Source: Paenibacillus sp. IHBB 10380 (GTDB taxonomy: Bacteria; Bacillota; Bacilli; Paenibacillales; Paenibacillaceae). Taken from it: 64,000 nucleotides of DNA. The stretch lies in NCBI RefSeq assembly GCF_000949425.1, contig NZ_CP010976.1, forward strand, positions 4,092,001-4,156,000, written 5' to 3'. Below, in pieces: positions 4,354 through 38,983 of the stretch. Made by a program: the position numbers and the translations under genes. Within the stretch, counting starts at the first letter, position 1. Each line of letters starts with the position of its first letter. The notes beneath the pieces were generated by a model. It made no database searches. It was not told the origin of the DNA and saw only the letters and a list, made by a program, of their open reading frames with translations.

Positions 4354-7300
4354 TTACGAATACAACCATACCCTCATTAGTGAAAGAAGTTGTTCTGTTT
4401 GTATCGGTTTTTTTACATAATCTGAAGCTCCAGCCTCAATACACTTGGATCGATCCTCTTTCATAGCCTTCGCTGTTAGTGCAATAATGGGTATTTTACA
4501 ATACTCAGGATTCTGCCTGATCAGCGTCATAGCTTCGTATCCATCCATTTCAGGCATCATCATATCCATAAGAACGATGTCGAAATCTTTGCGATCCTCT
4601 AGGATATCTATCGCTTCTCTTCCATTCTCCGCAAATATCACTTCCATACCGTAACTTTCTAGCACACTAGAGAGAGCAAAGACATTACGTATATCATCAT
4701 CCACGAGCAATATCTTTTTGTTATCAAAAAGCTCTTCCTTATTATGAAGTCTTTGCAATATCTCCCTTTTTTCATCTGGTAAGTTAGCCTCTACTCTGTG
4801 AAGAAACAACGTCGTCTCATCTAGAAGACGTTCTGGAGATTTAACATCTTTAATGATAATGGACTCGGCATATTTACGAAGTTTCATCTCTTCCTTAGGA
4901 TCAAGGTCCTTGCCCGTATATATAATAATAGGTAAATCAGATAAATTCTCATCATCTCGAATCTGATCAAGCAATTCAAATCCAGTCATATCCGATAGCA
5001 TTAAATCGAGTACCATACAATCATATCTTTGATTGCGAAGAAGCATCAATGCTTCTTTACCCGATGATGCTGCCGTAATCGATACATCGTCATGATTGAT
5101 AAACTCTATAATAGCATTACGCTGAATTTCATCATCTTCTACAATAAGTAAGTGCTTTAATGAATTATCTGTATACGATTCAATATGCGAGAAAGCTTCA
5201 TCAAGCGCACCTTTGGATGAAGGCTTCTTGAGATAGGCAATGGCCCCCATCATCAAGCCTTGCTTCACTTCATCGATGACCGATACGATATGAACTGGAA
5301 TATGACGTGTTAACGCTGAATTCTTCAATTCATTAAGAATGGCCCATCCATCCATAACAGGTAATTGAATATCCAGAATAATGGCACTCGGCAAATAAGT
5401 CTGAGCCATGGACAACCCTACATCACCCTTTGTTGCTACCAATGCTTTAAAGCCTCGAGTTCTCGCCATATCAAGAAGTATGGCTGCAAATTTCACGTCA
5501 TCCTCAATAATGAGCAACGTTTTGTCGTTCTCTTGAAGGGAATGACGATCATCCTCAAGCGGCTCCTCTGAATGGTCCATGATGCTATTATTGACATTGC
5601 CTACATAACTTGAATCTACGAAGCTTACTCTACTCATCATGGATTCTGAACTTGTTGCAGCAGCTACTTCTGCTTCAGTTAATACTTCATTCGGAGAATT
5701 CACTGGTATGTACAATGTGAAGCAGCTACCTTCACCTTCAGAGGATTGCAGATCAATGTATCCGCCAAGCAGATGAGACAATTCTCTACTGATAGAAAGA
5801 CCAAGCCCCGTACCGCCATATTTGCGACTTGTCGTTCCATCCACCTGCTGGAATGCTTCGAATATAATATCTCTTTTGTCGATAGGTATGCCTATCCCTG
5901 AATCTTTAACAGATAATGCAATATATTCTTGGTCTTTCTTCAGATGCCCAGGAAGTTCATTCGAATTAGCTAAATTTATCCCAAAACTAATGGAACCCGC
6001 ATTCGTAAATTTAAAAGCATTGCTGAGTAAGTTCCGAAGAATTTGCTTCAATCTGTGCCCATCCGTCACCACTTCATCAGGTAAATAATCGCCATACTTT
6101 ATGTTGAGAGATAGCTGTTTCTGATCTGCTAATGGCATGAAATTCTGCTTCACGAAGTTATCGAGATCTTTCAAACGAATAACCTCTCGATTAATATCCA
6201 TCTTCCCTGCATCAACTTTGGACAAATCAAGAATTTCATCAATCATCTTAAGTAAATCTGCTCCCGACATATAAATCGTATGCGCATATTCCACTTGCTT
6301 AGCATTTAGATTGCCACCCTTATTTTCAGACAATAGCTGAGACAAGATAAGAAGACTATTAAGCGGTGTACGCAATTCATGCGACATATTGGCCAAAAAT
6401 TCCGATTTATACTTCGCTGTAATAGATAGCTGAATCGCTTGTTGTTCTAATTGTGTACTTGTTTTCTCAATTTCATAATTCTTCTCTTCTAATTGCTGAA
6501 CTTGGTCTTCCATCGTCCGAGTCTTAGCAATCAGTTCCGTATTAAATTGTTCCAGTTCCTCTTGTTGTCTTTGCAAAAGAACTTCAGATCTTCTAAGCGC
6601 GCTTGTCTGTTCCTCCAAATTGTCATTAGATCTGCGTAGCTCTCCTTGTTGTGTCTGAAGCTCTTCAGATTGACATTGTAGCTCCTCTGTCAATGCCTGT
6701 GATTCACGTAACAATTCTTCTACACGTAATCGACGACTAACATTATTGATCACAATGCCTAGATTAGAGGTTAACTGCGAAATTAGTTCGCGTTGCAATG
6801 GTGTAAATGATGTGAATGAAGCAAGCTCCACTACACCTAAGAGTTCATTCTCGAACAAAATAGGATAAACTAGTAGACTTACAGGTGAGGAGCTTCCAAG
6901 TCCTGATTGAATAGACAGGTAATCTTCAGGCACTTTATTAATATAAATGGCCTTCTTATCCATGGCACTTTGTCCGATCAACCCTTCCCCAATTTCAACA
7001 ACTTCTTTGGCGAGTACGTCACCTGAACTCGCATATGTTCCATAAACGGATAGACGATTGGGATGATTAGGATCACCTTGAATATAGACGGCACCGTAAT
7101 GCGCTCCTAATACAGGAGTAAATTCACTAATAAACGTTTGAGATAATTGTTTTAACGACTGAACACCACGCAATAACTCCGTCACTTGACTTGTATGAGA
7201 ACTGAGCCAGTTCTGATCCTTCTGACTCTGTAGATATTTCATCTCTAATTGTTGCTTTTTCTCAATATCCTCTGCCATTTCTTTAAATACGTGTGCAACC

Positions 7301-18462: not shown

Positions 18463-20181
18463 TTAATACCCAATAGACGCGCCTTCACCACGAGGGTCAG
18501 CGCCACCGAATTTCACGTTAGTTTTCGGTTCGATAACGATCATACCGGATTGACCAACTTGGTCCGTGTAATTGTCAATCTTCTTCACTGGATGACCACG
18601 ACGGATAAGCTCATCCATAACGGATTGCGGGATACGTCCTTCCATCTTCAAGTCATTAGCAGAATCTCCCCAGTTACGGCCATGCAGCCATCTTGGCGCT
18701 TCAATAGCATCCTGCACACTGAAGCCAAAATCAACGAAGCGTGTTACAAGTGCTGCTTGCGTTTGAGGTTGTCCCTCCCCACCTTGTGTACCGTATAGCA
18801 TATACGGCTTGCCGTCTTTCAGCAGCATTGCAGGGTTCAGTGTATGGAACGTGCGCTTCTTGGGCTCCAAGTGGTTGATGTTGCTCTTATCCAAGGAGAA
18901 AAAGCTTCCGCGGTTCTGTAACAGAACCCCTGTATCTTTTGCCACAACACCTGCGCCCCAGTCAAAGTAATGGCTTTGAATGACGGATACGGCATTGCCG
19001 TCTTTATCTACAATACCTAACCATACAGTATCACCCTTAGGATCAAGTGGTTTAACTGCTTCCGCGGCTTTTTTCATGTCGATGCGGTCAGCCATTTGTT
19101 TACCGTGCTCTTTGGATAACAATTGGTCAACTGGAATTTTAACAAACTCCGGATCAGTCAACCATTTATCGCGATCAGCAAATGCTTGCTTCGTCGCTTC
19201 AACCATAACATGGTAGTAGTCAGCTGTGCCTTCGCCCATGCTCTTCAGATCAAAGTTGTTTAAAATGTTTAAAATAGATAATGATGCCATACCTTGGGAG
19301 TTAGGCGGTACGTTGTATGCTTTGTATCCACGGTAATCCACGGAAATAGGGTTTACCCAATCCGCTTTGTGGTTAGCAAAGTCATTGTACGTCAAGGAAC
19401 CTCCGTTAGCTTGAATATCAGCTGCGATCTTCTTCCCGATGTTGCCTTTGTAGAATGCGTCTGTACCTTTATCTGCAATTGTCTTCAGCGTGTTCGCCAA
19501 GTCTTTTTGCACAAGCATTTCGCCTGCTTTGTAAGGTTCACCGTTAGGCTTCAAGAACGTCTTGCGGAACGTTTCAAAACGCTGCAAGTTTTTCAATTCT
19601 TTATCCTTTGTGTCGATGGCACTTTTCGTCCATGACTCTTGATTAGGTGTCACCGGATAACCTTTCTCAGCGTACTGAATGGCACGCTCAAGCACGTTGT
19701 CCAGATCCATAGAATTACCCATAGATTTTTTCGCGTATTTGTAAGCTTCTCCCCAACCAGACACTGTTCCTGGAACTGTGTTTGCCGCCAAGTAGCCGCG
19801 AGAAGGGATTACATCAAAGCCCTTTTTTTTGTAGAAATCGATCGTCGTCTTCTCACCTGAGCGACCACTCGCATTTAATGCTTTTACTTCTTTTGTCTTT
19901 GCGTTATAAATAAGCCAGAACGCGTCTCCACCGAGTCCTGTATAGTGAGGATACACAACCGAGAGCGCTGCTTGCGCTGCGATTGCTGCGTCTACAGCGT
20001 TACCGCCCTCTTCAAGCACTTCCAATGCTGCGGCAGAAGCCAAATAATGCGGTGTTGTAACGATTCCGTTTGGTGCCATCGTTGTAGGACGACCCGCCGC
20101 ACCTGCAGTGGCCGATAAAGTCGAGAAGCATAACATTGTCGTCAGCAACAGGGTTGTACACTTTTTCAAATTAGTTCTCAT
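18463..20181 (-). CDS. Secreted gamma-glutamyltransferase
   Basis: A 572-residue member of the gamma-glutamyltranspeptidase family of N-terminal nucleophile hydrolases, which cleave gamma-glutamyl amides such as glutathione or poly-glutamate. A signal peptide of about 28 residues ends ATAGAAG. The large-subunit motif GGNAVDAAIAAQAALSVV is present, and the autocleavage site with nucleophile Thr is expected at GDTVWLGIVD near residue 390. The downstream glycine pair motif is TQGGEGQPQTQ. It belongs to the YwrD/GGT-like branch more than to classical Ggt, whose nucleophile site usually reads TTH. A c-di-GMP-type riboswitch precedes it. Confidence 0.8.
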   Translation of the reverse strand: MRTNLKKCTTLLLTTMLCFSTLSATAGAAGRPTTMAPNGIVTTPHYLASAAALEVLEEGGNAVDAAIAAQAALSVVYPHYTGLGGDAFWLIYNAKTKEVKALNASGRSGEKTTIDFYKKKGFDVIPSRGYLAANTVPGTVSGWGEAYKYAKKSMGNSMDLDNVLERAIQYAEKGYPVTPNQESWTKSAIDTKDKELKNLQRFETFRKTFLKPNGEPYKAGEMLVQKDLANTLKTIADKGTDAFYKGNIGKKIAADIQANGGSLTYNDFANHKADWVNPISVDYRGYKAYNVPPNSQGMASLSILNILNNFDLKSMGEGTADYYHVMVEATKQAFADRDKWLTDPEFVKIPVDQLLSKEHGKQMADRIDMKKAAEAVKPLDPKGDTVWLGIVDKDGNAVSVIQSHYFDWGAGVVAKDTGVLLQNRGSFFSLDKSNINHLEPKKRTFHTLNPAMLLKDGKPYMLYGTQGGEGQPQTQAALVTRFVDFGFSVQDAIEAPRWLHGRNWGDSANDLKMEGRIPQSVMDELIRRGHPVKKIDNYTDQVGQSGMIVIEPKTNVKFGGADPRGEGASIGY

Positions 20182-20399: not shown

Positions 20400-20495
20400 G
20401 CGATGACAGGCAACTGGCTGGCATAACCTGTGTAAACACAAGCGGTAGCCCCTGTAGTTTTGCGACCTATTCTTTCGAATAGTGTGCTTTTTGCT
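20400..20495 (-). ncRNA. c-di-GMP-I (GEMM) riboswitch aptamer
   Basis: On the minus strand the sequence holds the GAAA-capped hairpin TATTCGAAAGAATA, then GGTCGCAAAACTACAGGGGC, then a second arm with GCCAGCCAGTTGCC. These match the family landmarks: the GNRA loop, the GGNCGCAAA core and the tetraloop-receptor arm (consensus GGACGCAAAGCC..GGGCCUA and GGUAGCCAGGUUACC). It is placed about 220 bases before the gamma-glutamyltransferase start on the same strand, the usual position. Confidence 0.7.
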
Positions 20496-20833
20496 GTAAT
20501 TGTATTTGTTCATGAACATATCATCATATAGGAGATTATATCCTATCCATCAATTTCCATCAATAGTCGACAAATTTCGAGTAAATATACCGAAATCAGC
20601 ATTTTTTATTGGTTGTATTTACCACAAGTGGATGTTTTACTAGAGATAACCCATTTTCCCAGCAAAACTAACTTAGCATATGAGACAGTTACCACTAAGA
20701 CAGACTTTCACTTTCTACAAATAGCATTCATTCACAGTGTGGCTAAATTGATCCCTATATACCGTTTATTGAATTTCAGTCGCTAAAACATCCTTATTTT
20801 TGGTTTTCTTATAAATGAGGTAAAATAACGTAG
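20496..20833. other. Divergent intergenic region
   Basis: About 340 bases between the riboswitch and the plus-strand HEAT gene. It is AT-rich and should hold both promoters. I see no small gene, no clear operator and no repeat. A TTTGTCGAC at 20565-20574 resembles a Spo0A box but deviates at the last position. Confidence 0.4.
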
Positions 20834-30984: not shown

Positions 30985-32937
30985 TCATCTAAGGAGTCTC
31001 AATCCATTTAGAATAACTAGTATTGTACTTCCTTCATGACCAATGACACCAAAGGGTAGAGGAATATTCGTGACAAAGTTACTTGTGATCAGCAGTAGAA
31101 TAATACTAATGGCAAACACTATATTTTGCTTAATGATTCTCTGTGCTCGTCTGGCAAGTGTTATCGTACTCGCAATCTCTTCAATATTGTCATTCATAAG
31201 TACGACATCCGCGACCTCTAATGCTGTCCCGCTTCCGTTCATTCCCATACCTATACCAACGGTTGCTGTAGCTAGGGCAGGCGCATCATTAACTCCATCT
31301 CCGACCATCACCACATGACCGTACTGCTCCCGCATTTGTTTGACATAATTCACCTTATCCTCTGGCAATAAATCAGCATAAATATAATCTACACCCATCT
31401 GCTCTCCGATCACTTGGGCTGTATCCGCACGATCTCCTGTCAACATCACGACACGAATACCTAAAGCTTGCAGAGACTTCACCGTTCTTACCGCCTGCGG
31501 TCTGATCAAATCTTTCAAGGCTATCATGCCTACTACCTGATCTTCATCCATAATAACGGAGACAGTCTTCCCTTCTGAGGTAAGGCGGTTACGATGGTTA
31601 ACCCACTCTGATTGAACCGATGATTCATCCAAAATGCTACTCTTGCCTATTCTCCACATCTTTCCTTCAACCTCAGCTTCAATCCCCCATCCCGTCAACG
31701 ACTGAGCCGAATCAGCCGACTTCAACTGGACTCCTTCTTCCTCTGCTCTACGCAGAACAGCCTTTGCCAACGGATGCTCGGATAACTGCTCTACTGAGGC
31801 ACAGATGGATAGCAGTTCATTTCGGTCATATCCTTTTCCAACAATAAAATCCGTCACTTGCGGTGTTCCCATCGTAAGCGTTCCTGTCTTGTCAAAGGCC
31901 ACTACCGAAGTCAGCGCCATATTCTCTACGTGGGCTCCACCTTTGAAAAGAATTCCTTTACGCGCCCGATTGGAAATCGCGGACAGCATGGCAGGCATAA
32001 TCGAAGAGACTAAGGCACAGGGAGAAGCCACAACGAGAAATACCATCGCCTTGTAGAAGGAATTACCCCAGCTCCAACCTAACAGCAATGGTGCGATCCC
32101 GATTACTACTAGCGTTACGAGAACGACAATCCGTGCATAGATCGATTCAAACCGTTTGATAAAACGCTGTGAATCAGGAACTTCGCTCTCCGCTTCTTCC
32201 ACTAACTTAATGATTTTGGCAAAGACAGTAGCTTCGGCTGACTTCGTCACCTCAACATATAACACACCTTCTCCATTCAGCGTACCTGCGAATACTTCAT
32301 CGCCCGTTGTTTTGTCTACTGGATGTGCTTCACCCGTAATGGAAGCCTGATTTATAGAGGAATACCCACGCTGAATTTGACCATCTGCTGAGATCAACTC
32401 ACCTGGCTTCACAAGAAATAGATCTCCGACTTGAAGCTGACCAATAGGAACCTCCGTCATCGTCCCATTCTCGATTAGAATCGCTGTCTCAGGTTTAAGC
32501 GCCATAAGAGAAGAAATATCCTTCTTACTCCGTTCCATTGTGTAGCTCTCTAATGCACCACTTAAGGCAAATATGAAGATAAGCAAAGCCCCTTCATTCC
32601 AATAGCCTATCGTGGCTGCCCCCATAGCGGCTGCGATCATCAGTAAATTCACATCCAGATCACGTTCTTTAATAAGGGTCTGAACACCTTCCTTAGCCTT
32701 GACCCATCCGCCGAGCGTATAAGCGATCACATAGATGAGAACCGATAAGATATCAGACCACTGCCCCACTGTCCAAGCGATCAAAGTGAGCGCTCCACTA
32801 CTTAATGCAGCGAGCATCTCTGTATTACGAAGCATACCGCGTAAATCGAATTTCCTCTGATTCCGAGGATTCGGTTGATTGGCCATTTTGCGATTGGAGA
32901 TTGTTACCATTGATGAAGCCTTGTATGCATTTTGCAT
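30985..32937 (-). CDS. Heavy-metal P-type ATPase, ZosA-like
   Basis: A 650-residue P1B ATPase. Phosphorylation site DKTGTLT, actuator TGEAHPVDK, the nucleotide-domain HP (SEHPLAKAV) and hinge GDGVNDAPALA are intact. The membrane metal motif reads SPC (VVASPCALVSS), not CPC, and there is no N-terminal metal-binding domain, like ZosA/PfeT of Bacillus, which move zinc or iron. ATG 32937 follows GGAGGGT. Two Fur-family-like boxes lie upstream. Whether it imports or exports, and which metal, cannot be told from sequence. Confidence 0.82.
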   Translation of the reverse strand: MQNAYKASSMVTISNRKMANQPNPRNQRKFDLRGMLRNTEMLAALSSGALTLIAWTVGQWSDILSVLIYVIAYTLGGWVKAKEGVQTLIKERDLDVNLLMIAAAMGAATIGYWNEGALLIFIFALSGALESYTMERSKKDISSLMALKPETAILIENGTMTEVPIGQLQVGDLFLVKPGELISADGQIQRGYSSINQASITGEAHPVDKTTGDEVFAGTLNGEGVLYVEVTKSAEATVFAKIIKLVEEAESEVPDSQRFIKRFESIYARIVVLVTLVVIGIAPLLLGWSWGNSFYKAMVFLVVASPCALVSSIMPAMLSAISNRARKGILFKGGAHVENMALTSVVAFDKTGTLTMGTPQVTDFIVGKGYDRNELLSICASVEQLSEHPLAKAVLRRAEEEGVQLKSADSAQSLTGWGIEAEVEGKMWRIGKSSILDESSVQSEWVNHRNRLTSEGKTVSVIMDEDQVVGMIALKDLIRPQAVRTVKSLQALGIRVVMLTGDRADTAQVIGEQMGVDYIYADLLPEDKVNYVKQMREQYGHVVMVGDGVNDAPALATATVGIGMGMNGSGTALEVADVVLMNDNIEEIASTITLARRAQRIIKQNIVFAISIILLLITSNFVTNIPLPFGVIGHEGSTILVILNGLRLLR

Positions 32938-32992: not shown

Positions 32993-33025
32993 ACAAGCTG
33001 CTCCGAGTGACCCGGAGCAGCTTGT
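32993..33025 (-). terminator. Leader hairpin before the P-type ATPase gene
   Basis: A 13-bp perfect stem (ACAAGCTGCTCCG) closes on a seven-base loop, about 55 bases before the start. No strong T-run follows on the minus strand. It could be an attenuator or a terminator for plus-strand reading. Confidence 0.4.
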
Positions 33026-33030
33026 TTAAA

Positions 33031-33045
33031 TGAGAATGATACTCA
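33031..33045 (-). promoter_or_regulatory. Fur/PerR-like palindrome overlapping a candidate -10
   Basis: TGAGAATGATACTCA is a 7-1-7 palindrome close to TGATAATNATTATCA. On the minus strand it overlaps a possible -10 TATCAT, 16 bases past TTGCAT. A repressor there would block the ATPase promoter. Confidence 0.5.
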
Positions 33046-33154
33046 TTTCTTGTATCTATGCAATTATTTTTCCCATAAGCAACTTATGCTTTTATTATAT
33101 GCCGACATCACTCCAAAGTAAATGATATATATGACCATCAAGGAATAATGATTA

Positions 33155-33207: not shown

Positions 33208-33246
33208 GATGAGCAAAGGGTCTCAGGAAGACCCCTTCGCTCATCT
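33208..33246 (-). terminator. Terminator of the PPDK-like gene
   Basis: AGATGAGC.AAGGGTCT arms around CAGGA, followed on the minus strand by seven T. Confidence 0.85.
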
Positions 33247-33266: not shown

Positions 33267-34520
33267 TCAAATTCCTATAGAGCCATGATGACTCTGCAAA
33301 TCAGTAACGCTCTCCGTTAACTCCCACTGTGCTGCGCTTAAACGAACGCTTGATAATTCCGTCAAATTACAACTTACTTCATTAATTCCAAGCCTATACA
33401 CATCGGGTAAATCTACGGCCGTTAAAGCACCCACTGTGCGAATATCAATGTATGGCTTCATTCTCCGTACACTCCGTAAGGTTTCCACCTCTAGTACGCA
33501 ACCCGATGAGCCTATATTAATAACAGTATCCGTATTAGGATCACCTGAGTTTTCCTGCCATTCCAATACTAATAAATTCGTAAAGCGTGCCATCAGAACG
33601 GCTATTTCTTGCGAGATCCTCTCCGTTACCAGCACACCAACACGGTATTTCACCTGCCGATACATATGACATAAAGTTTGTTCTGCAACTCGGTCAATGA
33701 ACTCAATGCAGGCTGCTAATTGTTCCCCGCTCACTGGATTAGGAATCAATAGATCTAGCGTATAATCTTCTCCCTGTTGTTCACAGCGTAATATAGCTCT
33801 AAAAAGTGCTTCTAACTGAAGATCTTGTATGCCATTCAAAGGATAAGGCTCTATCATACTGTCTGCAGGTGAACGTAAACTAACCGTCATCGGGGCACCA
33901 TCTAATTCATGCAAAAGGGAACGCCATTGCTCTTGTTGTATACCCAACAACCGCTGTTGTAATGACTGTGGAATCTGCTCCTCTCTGTTTACTATACGAG
34001 CAGCGAATAATTCTCGCACATCGTTAGTAAGGAGTAAGTTTGCGCAACTAACTAATCCGAGCCCAGCAGCGCCTAACTTCTTGCCTAGCTGAGCATCCTT
34101 GGGCGTCACTCCGTTTGCAAATACACGTAAATGCCTCACTTGATCGCTCCATAACAATAAGCGTTCTGGCGCAGTAGGTACATTCAACTGCTGTAGATGT
34201 GCAGCATTTCGTACAATTTCCCCAATATAATTGGCGTCTGTACACAGTAATGCTTCTTCACGTGATAATGTTCCTAATGCAACCATTTCTATAAGTGAGA
34301 CTATCTCAGGAAGGGTATACGCACGATTTTGTCGGTCTTCATGTGTCCGATATAAACTACCTTTCCTATAGGAAGATAATTGACTTTGTCCAAGATAGCG
34401 TTCATCTGCTTCCGCAGCAGCTTGCTCCGAATACACCTGTAATAAGAACGCTCTCATCTCTATAGACTTGAAAAAGTCCTCCGTATTGTAGAAGTCATGG
34501 TTACACCGTTCACGCTTCAT
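33267..34520 (-). CDS. Degenerate pyruvate phosphate dikinase-like protein
   Basis: A 417-residue protein that aligns by eye with the central and C-terminal parts of pyruvate phosphate dikinase (PPDK). Landmarks are LGTLSREEALLC (PPDK ITKEEALLR), FANGVTPKDAQLGKKLGAAG (WANADTPEDA..FGAEG), LDGAPMTVSLRSPADSM (MDGLPVTIRLLDPPLHE) and GINEVSCNLTELSSVRLSAA ([20 protein letters not shown]). The ATP-grasp and swivelling-histidine domains are missing. Catalytic positions are lost: CRTEH reads VSCAN, the RLLDPP Arg is Ser, GLRGCR reads GIQDLQ, and GTNDLTQ and CGEHGGDP are not recognisable. Activity is very unlikely. A binding or regulatory role is inferred. It has its own terminator. Confidence 0.7.
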   Translation of the reverse strand: MKRERCNHDFYNTEDFFKSIEMRAFLLQVYSEQAAAEADERYLGQSQLSSYRKGSLYRTHEDRQNRAYTLPEIVSLIEMVALGTLSREEALLCTDANYIGEIVRNAAHLQQLNVPTAPERLLLWSDQVRHLRVFANGVTPKDAQLGKKLGAAGLGLVSCANLLLTNDVRELFAARIVNREEQIPQSLQQRLLGIQQEQWRSLLHELDGAPMTVSLRSPADSMIEPYPLNGIQDLQLEALFRAILRCEQQGEDYTLDLLIPNPVSGEQLAACIEFIDRVAEQTLCHMYRQVKYRVGVLVTERISQEIAVLMARFTNLLVLEWQENSGDPNTDTVINIGSSGCVLEVETLRSVRRMKPYIDIRTVGALTAVDLPDVYRLGINEVSCNLTELSSVRLSAAQWELTESVTDLQSHHGSIGI

Positions 34521-34618
34521 TTCAGCTGTCCACCCTCTTTTCCCTTAGTACACTCTACATAAGATTATTAAGCATGAACCCAAAATATACAGACAGTTCC
34601 ACTGTATTTAACAAAAAT

Positions 34619-34652
34619 ACACCTTCCCTCTCCATTTGGAGAAAAAAGGTGT
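34619..34652 (-). terminator. Terminator of metY
   Basis: ACACCTT...CTCC arms around ATTT, followed on the minus strand by ATTTTTG. Confidence 0.65.
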
Positions 34653-34704: not shown

Positions 34705-36203
<1,499 letters not shown>

Positions 36204-37187
36204 TTACCTCAAAATTACCGGAAGATCCTCAATCAGCTTTTCTCTCGCTAATGGATCTGTTGTGATGCCAAGACTTCCAGCAATGAAATAAACCTTTCCG
36301 GCTTTAATGGCCGGAAGATCTCTCCAGATCGGTCCTGTGATCATTTCCTCCGCTGCTCTTCGTTCTTTTTCATCAAAAAACACTATAAAGATTCTATCCC
36401 CTGCCAACTCTGGCAGTAGTTCAGCGGATATATCGATATATCCATAACCCTTAGGATCTTCAATCAGTTTCTGAATAGCCTGAGTCGGCTTAAAGCCATT
36501 CTCATGGTAAATAAAGCTAGGCAAATAGCTGGTTGTATATACGCTGAGCCTATTGGCACCTAACATATACTGAAAGACCGACGCTGTTTCATCAGTTTGA
36601 ATAATGTTATCCTGCACTAATGACTTCCACATCTCTGTTACTTTGACTTCATGCTTGGCCAGAAATGCCTCCGCTTCTTTCTCATAGCCGAACCATTCCC
36701 CGATTCTCTTAATCCGGTCTGCCATCGGATCCCACTCGTTCGTCAGAAGGACAGGTGCAACTTTAGAAATCGCTTCAATCTGTGCCGAATCCGTAATAGA
36801 GGTAATAATAATATCCGGCTGCAGTTCAATTAATTTTTCAACATTTAGAGGCCAGCCTACATCCGCAACATCTTTAATTTCTTCTTTATAAACTGCATTT
36901 TCAAGGCCGCCTTGAACTAATCCTACGGGTTGAATACCAAACAACAAAATATCGCCTACCGTATTATCCGTATACACAACTCGCTTGGGCGAGCTCGGGA
37001 TTTCGACCTTTCGTCCCTTGATATCAGTAACGATTTTCGTCTCGGCAGTTGAACTTTCCTTGCCTGCTGTCTGAGATACTTCCCCTTCTGTCTTGTCTCC
37101 CCCGTTGTTGCTACTGCAAGCGCCCATCAAAGCAGCGATCAAACAAAATATCAGACTTAACAGTAATAACTGTGACCTCTTCAACAT
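36204..37187 (-). CDS. Siderophore-binding lipoprotein
   Basis: A 327-residue ABC-transporter substrate-binding protein of the iron-siderophore class (FeuA/YfiY-like). It starts MLKRSQLLLLSLIFCLIAAL with lipobox LMGAC, so Cys would be lipidated. The periplasmic-binding fold begins IPSSPKRVVYTDNTVGDILL and includes VEKLIELQPDIIITS. ATG 37187 follows TAGGAGGA; an upstream ATG at 37238 falls in the Fur box region. A perfect Fur box lies about 30 bases upstream. It stands without permease or ATPase genes, so these must be elsewhere. Confidence 0.85.
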   Translation of the reverse strand: MLKRSQLLLLSLIFCLIAALMGACSSNNGGDKTEGEVSQTAGKESSTAETKIVTDIKGRKVEIPSSPKRVVYTDNTVGDILLFGIQPVGLVQGGLENAVYKEEIKDVADVGWPLNVEKLIELQPDIIITSITDSAQIEAISKVAPVLLTNEWDPMADRIKRIGEWFGYEKEAEAFLAKHEVKVTEMWKSLVQDNIIQTDETASVFQYMLGANRLSVYTTSYLPSFIYHENGFKPTQAIQKLIEDPKGYGYIDISAELLPELAGDRIFIVFFDEKERRAAEEMITGPIWRDLPAIKAGKVYFIAGSLGITTDPLAREKLIEDLPVILR

Positions 37188-37216
37188 GAATGTCCTCCTA
37201 CACGTTTTCCTTTTAT

Positions 37217-37231
37217 TGATAATGATTATCA
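37217..37231 (-). promoter_or_regulatory. Fur box upstream of the siderophore-binding gene
   Basis: TGATAATGATTATCA is a perfect 7-1-7 Fur box in the divergent intergenic region, about 30 bases before the binding-protein start. Confidence 0.85.
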
Positions 37232-37369
37232 ACATCATTTATTATACATGCTATTCCATTTTGACATCAATGGAGAGAAAGGCTGTTTTTTTGTACCATT
37301 GAGATGGCTTAATGATGGATATATCGATACATTGAAATAAAGGAAACTTTCGTGTAAGATCAATTTAAT

Positions 37370-37384
37370 TGATAATCGTTCTCA
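37370..37384 (+). promoter_or_regulatory. Fur box upstream of the Btr-like regulator
   Basis: TGATAATCGTTCTCA keeps one perfect half-site of TGATAATNATTATCA, with two mismatches in the other. It lies 19 bases before the preferred start. Confidence 0.6.
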
Positions 37385-37402
37385 AATATGGAGGTGCTTC
37401 AT

Positions 37403-38983
37403 TTGAATCTGGAAACTCTTGGAGCTACAAGTCCAATCAACGCAATACACTTTGAACTACACAGCATGGTGCAGGGAAGCTTCTCCCACAACTTGATTGT
37501 TCCACAACAGCACCTGGATACCTATATCATATTAGCGATCGAAGAAGGAGAAGGAGTCCTGGTCTGGAACAACCAAGAGCACCACCTACTATATGGAACA
37601 TGTTTCCTGATTGACCCCGATTCTAATATTGAAATCAAAAATGTCAAAAATACCAACCTATGCCTATGGCTGTTGACATTCTCTGTGCATTCCACCATAA
37701 ACCCCTCTTCTGCCTACTTGAAATCGGGTGAATTCTGCGTGCCATCCTTCGAGTCTTTAATTCGTGGGTTTAAAGGCATCGCAAAGCATCAGAACGACCG
37801 TGAGGTACTAGAGCAAATGGCCAATCATTCCAGATTCCAAAAGGTAATTGGCGGTCTCCTTCCACATATCGGGCATAACAAAACAACCGAAAGCAGCAGG
37901 CAAGCTGTTTCCGAAATCATTGCGCAATTGAAGGAGAATTACCAGGAAGATGTATCCGTAGAGGAGCTTGCTGCGCGAGCCCAAATTAGCAATCGCAGAT
38001 TTACACATTGGTTTAAGCTATTAACCGGAACCAATGTATCCGGCTACATGACGACTTTACGAATGAATCAAGCCAAACAGTTGCTTCTGAGCGGTGGACG
38101 CTTGCAGGAAATTGCCAGTACGGTAGGCTACCGAGATGAATTTTATTTTAATCGACGCTTCAAGCAAACGGTAGGCATTTCTCCCGGCCAGTTCATCCGC
38201 AATCATAAGAAAAAGCAAATTAATATTTGTGCAATGAGTTGCCTCGGCCATCTACTTGCGCTTGGTATTCGTCCAGCCGCTGCCGCAAAAAACTTAACGA
38301 ATAATTATCATTTGAGAGAACTCAGCTCTGATATTCATAAGGTCAACAGTATTCCCTTTCAGCTCGATGAGATTGCCAATCTTCATCCGGAGCTGATCCT
38401 CGCTGCGGATCAACAGGATTACGATAAGCTGTCGAAAGTCGCTCCTACCCTATTGTTCTCAGCCAATGAACATAAGCCGCCTGCTTTGCTCCGGATGCTT
38501 GGAGAAACATTTGGCAAGCAGAATGAGGCAGAACAGTGGATTTTACAGTACAAGCGAAAGACACAGCGCAACAGAGCAAAACTGGCCGGTATTATTCCAA
38601 GCCATGAAACATTCTCGGCCATTGAGATTCGAACCGACTCCATTTATGTTTTCGGCAATTATTGGTGTAGGGGTGCTTACAATTTGTATGATGGACTGGA
38701 ACTTGCAGCTCCAGCAATCATTCAGCATGAAATGATAGATAAAGAAGCCTATCGCATTATATCCGAGGAGCAATTGCCGCTATATGTAGGTGATCATCTT
38801 TTCTTGACGGTCGTCGATCCGGTTCGCTTCAAGCAATTGTCAAACACTCCATGGTGGAAATCAATGCCTGCTGTATCACATAACCAGGTCTACCAAACCA
38901 ATCTTCTGAATTTTGGTGTTAGTGATCCGATCTCTTTGTATAATCAGCTTGATATACAAATGAAATTACTGCTTGCACGATGA
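37403..38983 (+). CDS. AraC-type regulator fused to a siderophore-binding domain (Btr-like)
   Basis: A 526-residue cytoplasmic protein. The N-terminal cupin-like part (to about 150) is followed by an AraC helix-turn-helix (about 180-280; VSVEELAARAQISNRRFTHW, ASTVGYRDEFYFNRRFKQTV) and then a C-terminal periplasmic-binding-type domain without signal peptide. The fusion is that of B. subtilis Btr, which binds bacillibactin and activates its uptake operon. It faces the siderophore-binding lipoprotein gene. TTG 37403 has GGAGGTG six bases before; the ATG at 37388 overlaps that site. Confidence 0.85.
   Translation: MNLETLGATSPINAIHFELHSMVQGSFSHNLIVPQQHLDTYIILAIEEGEGVLVWNNQEHHLLYGTCFLIDPDSNIEIKNVKNTNLCLWLLTFSVHSTINPSSAYLKSGEFCVPSFESLIRGFKGIAKHQNDREVLEQMANHSRFQKVIGGLLPHIGHNKTTESSRQAVSEIIAQLKENYQEDVSVEELAARAQISNRRFTHWFKLLTGTNVSGYMTTLRMNQAKQLLLSGGRLQEIASTVGYRDEFYFNRRFKQTVGISPGQFIRNHKKKQINICAMSCLGHLLALGIRPAAAAKNLTNNYHLRELSSDIHKVNSIPFQLDEIANLHPELILAADQQDYDKLSKVAPTLLFSANEHKPPALLRMLGETFGKQNEAEQWILQYKRKTQRNRAKLAGIIPSHETFSAIEIRTDSIYVFGNYWCRGAYNLYDGLELAAPAIIQHEMIDKEAYRIISEEQLPLYVGDHLFLTVVDPVRFKQLSNTPWWKSMPAVSHNQVYQTNLLNFGVSDPISLYNQLDIQMKLLLAR

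Follow-up and report, generated by a model that had tools for sequence, protein, structure and literature searches.

The open reading frame at positions 33267..34520 (minus strand) of the window, by which we mean the whole analysed stretch of 64,000 nucleotides from Paenibacillus sp. IHBB 10380, is a real gene. Its 417-residue product matches PF02896 and TIGR01828, and its origin from pyruvate phosphate dikinase (PPDK) is well supported; the spread of the family and the dN/dS ratios among relatives add to the identification. We propose that the gene probably encodes a pseudoenzyme that derives from PPDK, has a re-made pocket and would act as a regulatory or binding protein. Compared to PPDK the product lacks three parts, namely the ATP-grasp domain, the phosphohistidine domain and the loop that follows the second PEP arginine, so that the helical linker is joined to the PEP barrel; as a small soluble protein it would now serve in regulation or binding. 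Short family members including the window protein will be referred to as E-forms, apparent intermediates as I-forms and full-length PPDKs as T-forms.

Domain Architecture of the Window Protein

Pfam profile searches placed the window protein above the gathering score of PF02896 (25.9 bits against 22.8), whereas its score with the PPDK equivalog model TIGR01828 (70.4 bits) was far below the cut-off of 843.45. The ATP-grasp model PF01326 gave no match at E values up to 10 and the phosphohistidine domain PF00391 was not matched either, in agreement with the original prediction that both domains are gone. That prediction had also staked itself on a PEP-type barrel, and the predicted structure is indeed a (β/α)8 barrel (residues 118–405; 33306..34169, minus strand) with PPDKs as the best fold matches. 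In the structure model, residue 68 onward aligned to PPDK from residue 342. The preceding N-terminal stretch (residues 1–62; 34335..34520, minus strand) is variable, lies outside the PPDK fold match and was predicted with low confidence (pLDDT of 37–52 in ten-residue blocks). Residues 68–113 (34182..34319, minus strand), which include the EEALLC motif, correspond to the helical inter-domain linker of PPDK according to the alignment with PPDKs and I-forms and to the fold alignment, and this linker is now joined directly to the barrel. As judged by profile, sequence and predicted fold, the window protein is thus the PPDK linker plus the PEP-binding TIM barrel.

The junction at the missing phosphohistidine domain was assigned to residues 107–117 (34170..34202, minus strand) by comparing span lengths. 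The phosphohistidine span comprises at least 140 residues in the 23 PPDKs, 2–42 in the 12 I-forms and 0–19 in the 43 E-forms. The segment that follows the second PEP arginine measures 61–69 residues in PPDKs, 15–70 in I-forms, 11–21 in E-forms and 15 in the window protein, which lacks a barrel loop of about 50 amino acids relative to PPDK. The order of the PPDK landmarks is therefore preserved as had been claimed, but their spacing is not since the spans are shortened.

Loss and Retention of Catalytic Residues

Catalytic positions were compared in an alignment of the 23 full-length PPDKs, 12 I-forms and 43 E-forms, the window protein included, with columns located by motif and residues numbered as in Clostridium symbiosum PPDK. 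His455 is kept in 23/23 T-forms, 0/12 I-forms and 0/43 E-forms. For the first and the second PEP arginine the corresponding numbers are 23/23, 8/12 and 38/43 (Arg561) and 23/23, 8/12 and 0/43 (Arg617). Glu745 was found in 23/23, 9/12 and 1/43, Asn768 in 23/23, 0/12 and 0/43, Asp769 in 23/23, 1/12 and 1/43, and Cys831 in 23/23, 12/12 and 36/43 sequences, and each of the PPDK metal ligands is lost in 42 of the 43 E-forms. The window protein carries S, S, T, Q, E and C at the columns of Arg561, Arg617, Glu745, Asn768, Asp769 and Cys831, respectively. The PPDK set of PEP-site residues (the first five of these) is consequently absent from it, and the general acid/base cysteine is present as C384 (codon at 33369..33371, minus strand). 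The serine at the Arg561 position, S158, is encoded at 34047..34049 (minus strand).

With neither His455 nor Arg617 nor the metal ligands in place, PPDK chemistry as known is impossible and, on the evidence of the sequence, can be regarded as excluded for the window protein. The protein thus combines homology to an enzyme, recognised by sequence and fold, with the loss of essential catalytic residues, and profile, fold and residue columns all agree with the earlier view of a shortened PPDK relative that is incapable of the PPDK reaction. The stronger claim that every catalytic position had been replaced went too far: most are gone, but Cys831 is kept and Arg561 is found in most E-forms. By the same token, homologues with intact arginines and cysteine, which had been named as evidence against the idea, do exist in part, as most homologues retain one arginine and the cysteine and have lost the rest. 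Sensing of PEP, which had been suggested for the window protein, is doubtful given that the equivalents of Arg617, Glu745, Asn768 and Asp769 as well as the first PEP arginine are missing.

Newly Conserved Residues and the Barrel Mouth

A second residue survey revealed positions that are conserved in the E-forms and differ from PPDK. Among them, W175 (38/43 E-forms; R in the window protein), P262 (39/43), T282 (40/43), V318 (40/43) and Y375 (37/43) were found in 0/23 PPDKs at the same columns, and D320 is present in 35/43 E-forms at a column that is Gly in 23/23 PPDKs. In the window protein the acid is E320 (codon at 33561..33563, minus strand), where strand 6 of the barrel ends, and in a 44-row family alignment 40 rows carry Asp or Glu here. 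D233 and R190 are each found in all 44 rows, position 158 is Arg in 41 rows and Ser in the window protein alone, and position 384 is Cys in 34 rows. In the structure model, residues 320 and 384 appear to terminate strands 6 and 8, respectively, which would place them on the face that binds PEP in PPDK. The barrel mouth would thus have been re-made with the strand-6 acid, together with Cys384, which was kept, and Arg158, which was kept in most relatives. The barrel is the part of PPDK that binds PEP and mediates dimerisation, so that the remnant would lend itself to binding a small acid or a partner; we suggest that its re-made mouth would accommodate a small anionic metabolite or else a partner protein other than PPDK.

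Conserved and partly new mouth residues (158, 233, 320 and 384) might also belong to an active site, and the main rival to our proposal is a re-made enzyme that, like other PEP/pyruvate barrels, has a small acid or a phosphorylated compound as substrate of a different reaction. This would have to be reconciled with the loss of both PPDK metal ligands in 42/43 E-forms, with the absence of R158 from the window protein and with the absence of the cysteine from 7/43 E-forms, and we attribute to it a small, though not negligible, probability. The replacement of R158 likewise argues against simple PEP sensing in the window species. As two family-conserved residues are lost in the window protein (R158 to S and W175 to R), this copy may be more decayed than its kin.

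Retention and Divergence in the Genus

A first search of genome contigs with the window protein as query found no relative. A profile built from ten relatives was run on 100 Paenibacillus genomes and matched 97; in two of these (G079 and G099) the match was a PPDK or an ambiguous fragment alone, and the family was therefore counted as present in 95/100 genomes. Among the 95 carriers, G044 (72% complete) yielded a partial match, and in G062 the gene (G062:C30:65726-66684) is split over two reading frames by a frameshift or an assembly error. The profile search did not find the gene in G013, G022 (900 contigs) and G089 (71% complete). Plasmid carriage was rejected, since no tblastn match was obtained among 72,556 plasmid records.

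Nei-Gojobori estimates among relatives (224 pairs, not independent of each other, with dS of 0.2–2) gave a median dN/dS of 0.25 and a maximum of 0.41; pairs with dS below 0.05 reached up to 0.55. The selection signal is below 1 and of moderate strength, and because no pair involving the window protein is close enough, it speaks for the family and not for the window copy. Presence in 95/100 genomes together with this median points to retention by selection at the family level. The gene had been predicted to be kept by selection on account of its intact frame; the conclusion stands, on the basis of genus-wide presence and dN/dS among relatives rather than of the open frame alone.

The family evolves fast relative to its neighbours. 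Identity to the window protein is 27–43% with a median of 32 (38 loci), compared to 85–91% for MetY (38 loci), 64–78% for the P1B ATPase (36 loci) and 80–86% for a thioredoxin-reductase-type flavoprotein (27 loci). This very fast divergence would also be expected of a PPDK relic that is slowly dying under relaxed selection, has no job and persists by chance. The loss of R158 and W175 in the window protein, the frameshifted copy in G062, the missing copy in G013 and a short form reduced to 296 residues at one locus (L106) fit such a relic as well. Its presence in 95/100 genomes, dN/dS ratios far below 1 among relatives, conserved residues that are absent from PPDK and a conserved upstream element do not, and we consider a relic unlikely, more so than a re-made enzyme. 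Selection, new conserved residues and the upstream element together argue that the gene has a job.

Relation to True PPDK and Its Regulator

PPDK scoring over the TIGR01828 cut-off is encoded in 17/100 genomes of the genus. The original prediction had considered an action on real PPDK, and a protein that modulates true PPDK or the PPDK regulator would be consistent with a fold that is the same as the PPDK barrel and with the presence of the gene in 15/17 PPDK-bearing genomes. However, the gene is also carried by 80/83 genomes without PPDK, the window genome included, so that it cannot mainly act on PPDK. An action on PPDK as the general role was thus rejected, and modulation of PPDK or its regulator is very improbable. 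The window genome contains no PPDK above the family cut-off; its best hits were two Enzyme I-like open reading frames (574 and 583 aa), an 870-aa PEP-synthase-like open reading frame and the family gene itself, the Enzyme I-like and PEP-synthase-like labels being read from lengths and matched regions. In a wider version, the protein might act instead on Enzyme I or the product of the 870-aa PEP-synthase-like frame.

The PPDK-less window genome also contains a 57-residue, stop-ended relic of a PF03618-type gene (PPDK/PEP-synthase regulator), which is located beside msrA on the minus strand (G000:C1:3169278-3169454; positions 6279-6455 of locus L139) and likewise tells against a modulator of PPDK or its regulator.

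Genomic Context

Synteny was examined at 39 of 41 loci, the window included; two loci (L064 and L077) were left out as their gene was missed by the ORF picker, which also placed several starts too far upstream. A MetY of the homocysteine synthase type (34705..35994, minus strand) is the upstream neighbour and is found upstream on the same strand in 37/39 loci. The downstream neighbour is a heavy-metal P1B ATPase with an SPC motif (30985..32937, minus strand); in 35/39 loci it follows at a distance of up to 2.7 kb and is encoded on the same strand. As other genes of the locus are conserved too, this conservation is weak evidence of a shared function.

In the P1B ATPase, CPC is replaced by SPC and an HEGST motif occurs close to the end, as in Co/Fe-type exporters; NCBIfam models put it in the cadmium family. 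The leader of its gene (window positions 32993-33050) contains the palindrome TGAGAATGATACTCA, which resembles a Fur or PerR box, and between this palindrome and the coding start lies a terminator-like hairpin (33025-32993, 15 pairs); the ATPase could be under metal-responsive control. At 36204-38983 a gene for a lipoprotein of the siderophore-binding type is divergent from that of an AraC regulator with a part resembling substrate-binding proteins; the regulator is Btr-like, with a score under the cut-off of that model.

Transcription and the Upstream Element

Terminator-like hairpins were found on both sides of the family gene, at its 3′ side (33215..33237, minus strand) and between metY and the gene (34619..34652, minus strand); three such hairpins were detected in the stretch scanned, compared to 1.1 expected from shuffled sequences. 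Owing to these flanking hairpins the gene is probably transcribed alone, and an operon with metY or the P1B ATPase is unlikely in the window. An Rfam search found no RNA element at the gene, and the sole Rfam match of the window lies elsewhere: a c-di-GMP-I riboswitch (20406-20498, minus strand; 63.7 bits) is located just upstream of a 572-aa gene (18463-20181) that we labelled gamma-glutamyltransferase-like from its sequence.

Upstream of the gene a promoter-like element, GYATATTT-N13-AATAnnCT, is conserved across relatives, and the window's own site was located with a looser pattern (34559..34590, minus strand). The GYATATTT block was present in 55 of 62 distinct upstream stretches, many of them from closely related loci, and by eye it is followed at near-fixed spacing by (A/C)(A/G)TA. 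The form typical of one clade, CTGTATATTTC-N11-TAATANNCTGTANGG, gave exactly one match with up to 3 mismatches in each of 28 out of 100 genomes; 27 of these 28 matches adjoin the family gene and the remaining one, in G086, is far from its gene. The backward control of this pattern had 0 matches in the 100 genomes. Gene specificity of the element is accordingly claimed for the clade whose form was searched genome-wide. The strict pattern is absent from the window genome, and a loose form gave 75 matches there compared to 67 for the control, as expected by chance, with the gene's own site among the 3-mismatch matches.

Simple consensus scans of the upstream region for sigma promoters, sporulation types included, gave nothing above shuffled sequences. 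The first block, GYATATTT, resembles the -35 region of SigE promoters, and a SigE-type pattern is enriched in the window genome (23 matches compared to 6 for a control pattern). Since the second block of the gene does not fit this pattern, no sigma factor was assigned.

As the element is found almost only at the family gene in the clade searched, autoregulation can be envisaged. It forms part of a more far-reaching scenario, in which PPDK would have lost its phosphotransfer domains and become a genus-wide signalling protein via surviving intermediates, with a barrel that senses a metabolite, acts as a regulator and has a promoter element dedicated to it; we put this forward tentatively and think it rather doubtful.

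Apparent Intermediates in the P. amylolyticus Group

A sister group comprising P. amylolyticus and its kin contains 12 I-forms, ten of 710–797 aa and two of 585 aa. They are located at the ppdK locus of this group (L107-L114, L102, L103, L100 and L101), which adjoins genes for an LtaS-type sulfatase and a DHH-family protein, and judged by match length P. xylanivorans, P. taichungensis, P. amylolyticus and P. illinoisensis are among the holders that are named, cultured species. Three loci (L115, L116 and L118) carry a true PPDK (898–920 aa) followed by genes for CcpN and the PPDK/PEP-synthase regulator. In the 20-kb stretches of the I-form loci, tblastn detected CcpN and PpsR genes in 0/12. PF00391 matched three PPDKs with 81, 82 and 78 bits and none of the 12 I-forms; scores for PPDK_N were 170–177 bits in the PPDKs versus 21–59 in the I-forms, and those for PF02896 were 272–284 versus 121–240.

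Short forms are also present in the sister group, at four loci (455, 483, 483 and 296 aa, the last being L106). In all four the orthologous P1B ATPase lies within about 9 kb downstream, in three of the four a second, different P1B ATPase is directly upstream, and no metY was observed within the 20-kb stretches. Two genomes (G312 and G277) each contain an open reading frame of PPDK length (896 and 903 aa) plus a 483-aa short form.

A tree built on 301 barrel columns united 43/43 E-forms in one clade (bootstrap 100/100), whose stem has a length of 2.0 changes per column. E- and I-forms together were set apart from T-forms with a bootstrap of 69/100; the I-forms by themselves require 2 changes on the tree. 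Residue 163 is Phe in 23/23 T-forms and Leu in 12/12 I-forms and 39/43 E-forms, and residue 296 is Thr in 23/23 T-forms and Ala in 7/12 I-forms and 37/43 E-forms. In the alignment the boundary at which the phosphohistidine domain was excised is identical in I- and E-forms. The shared states L163 and A296 and the common boundary favour a single loss of this domain, repeated loss with convergence at a domain boundary being the alternative. We are moderately confident that the I-forms descend from the same first step as the E-forms and resemble frozen intermediates.

Comparison with Known Systems

Pseudoenzymes as a kind are well known, and the stepwise change from enzyme to pseudoenzyme is usually deduced from end points. 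None of the titles and abstract openings listed from the open-licence PMC literature described the family reported here. Compared to PPDK (TIGR01828; PDB 1kbl, 1vbg and 2r82), the window protein has less than half the length and lacks the ATP-grasp domain, the phosphohistidine domain, the loop of about 50 amino acids, Arg617 and the metal ligands. The PEP-binding domains of PTS Enzyme I and PEP synthase match it more weakly than PPDK does, with no phosphohistidine or PPDK_N part being matched. The PF02896 label (PEP-utilising enzyme, PEP-binding domain), for which the protein exceeds the gathering score, makes no mention of the lost catalytic residues, and for a close relative (P0003) one source gives the name "pyruvate,orthophosphate dikinase", for which its residues offer no support. 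Annotators are thus warned against labelling genes of this family as PPDK and against taking them as evidence of a PEP-pyruvate cycle in Paenibacillus.

The I-forms of the P. amylolyticus group resemble the window family in that the same domain is missing at the same boundary, L163 is shared and Asn768 is lost. They differ in size (585–797 aa), in an eroded ATP-grasp region that is still present, in the arginine found in 8/12 at each of the two PEP arginine columns and in their location at the ppdK locus and not beside metY and the P1B ATPase. In one bacterial family the end point and the intact type of the ancestor are found together with apparent intermediates (797 to 585 aa), and by their coexistence the order of domain and residue loss becomes directly testable.
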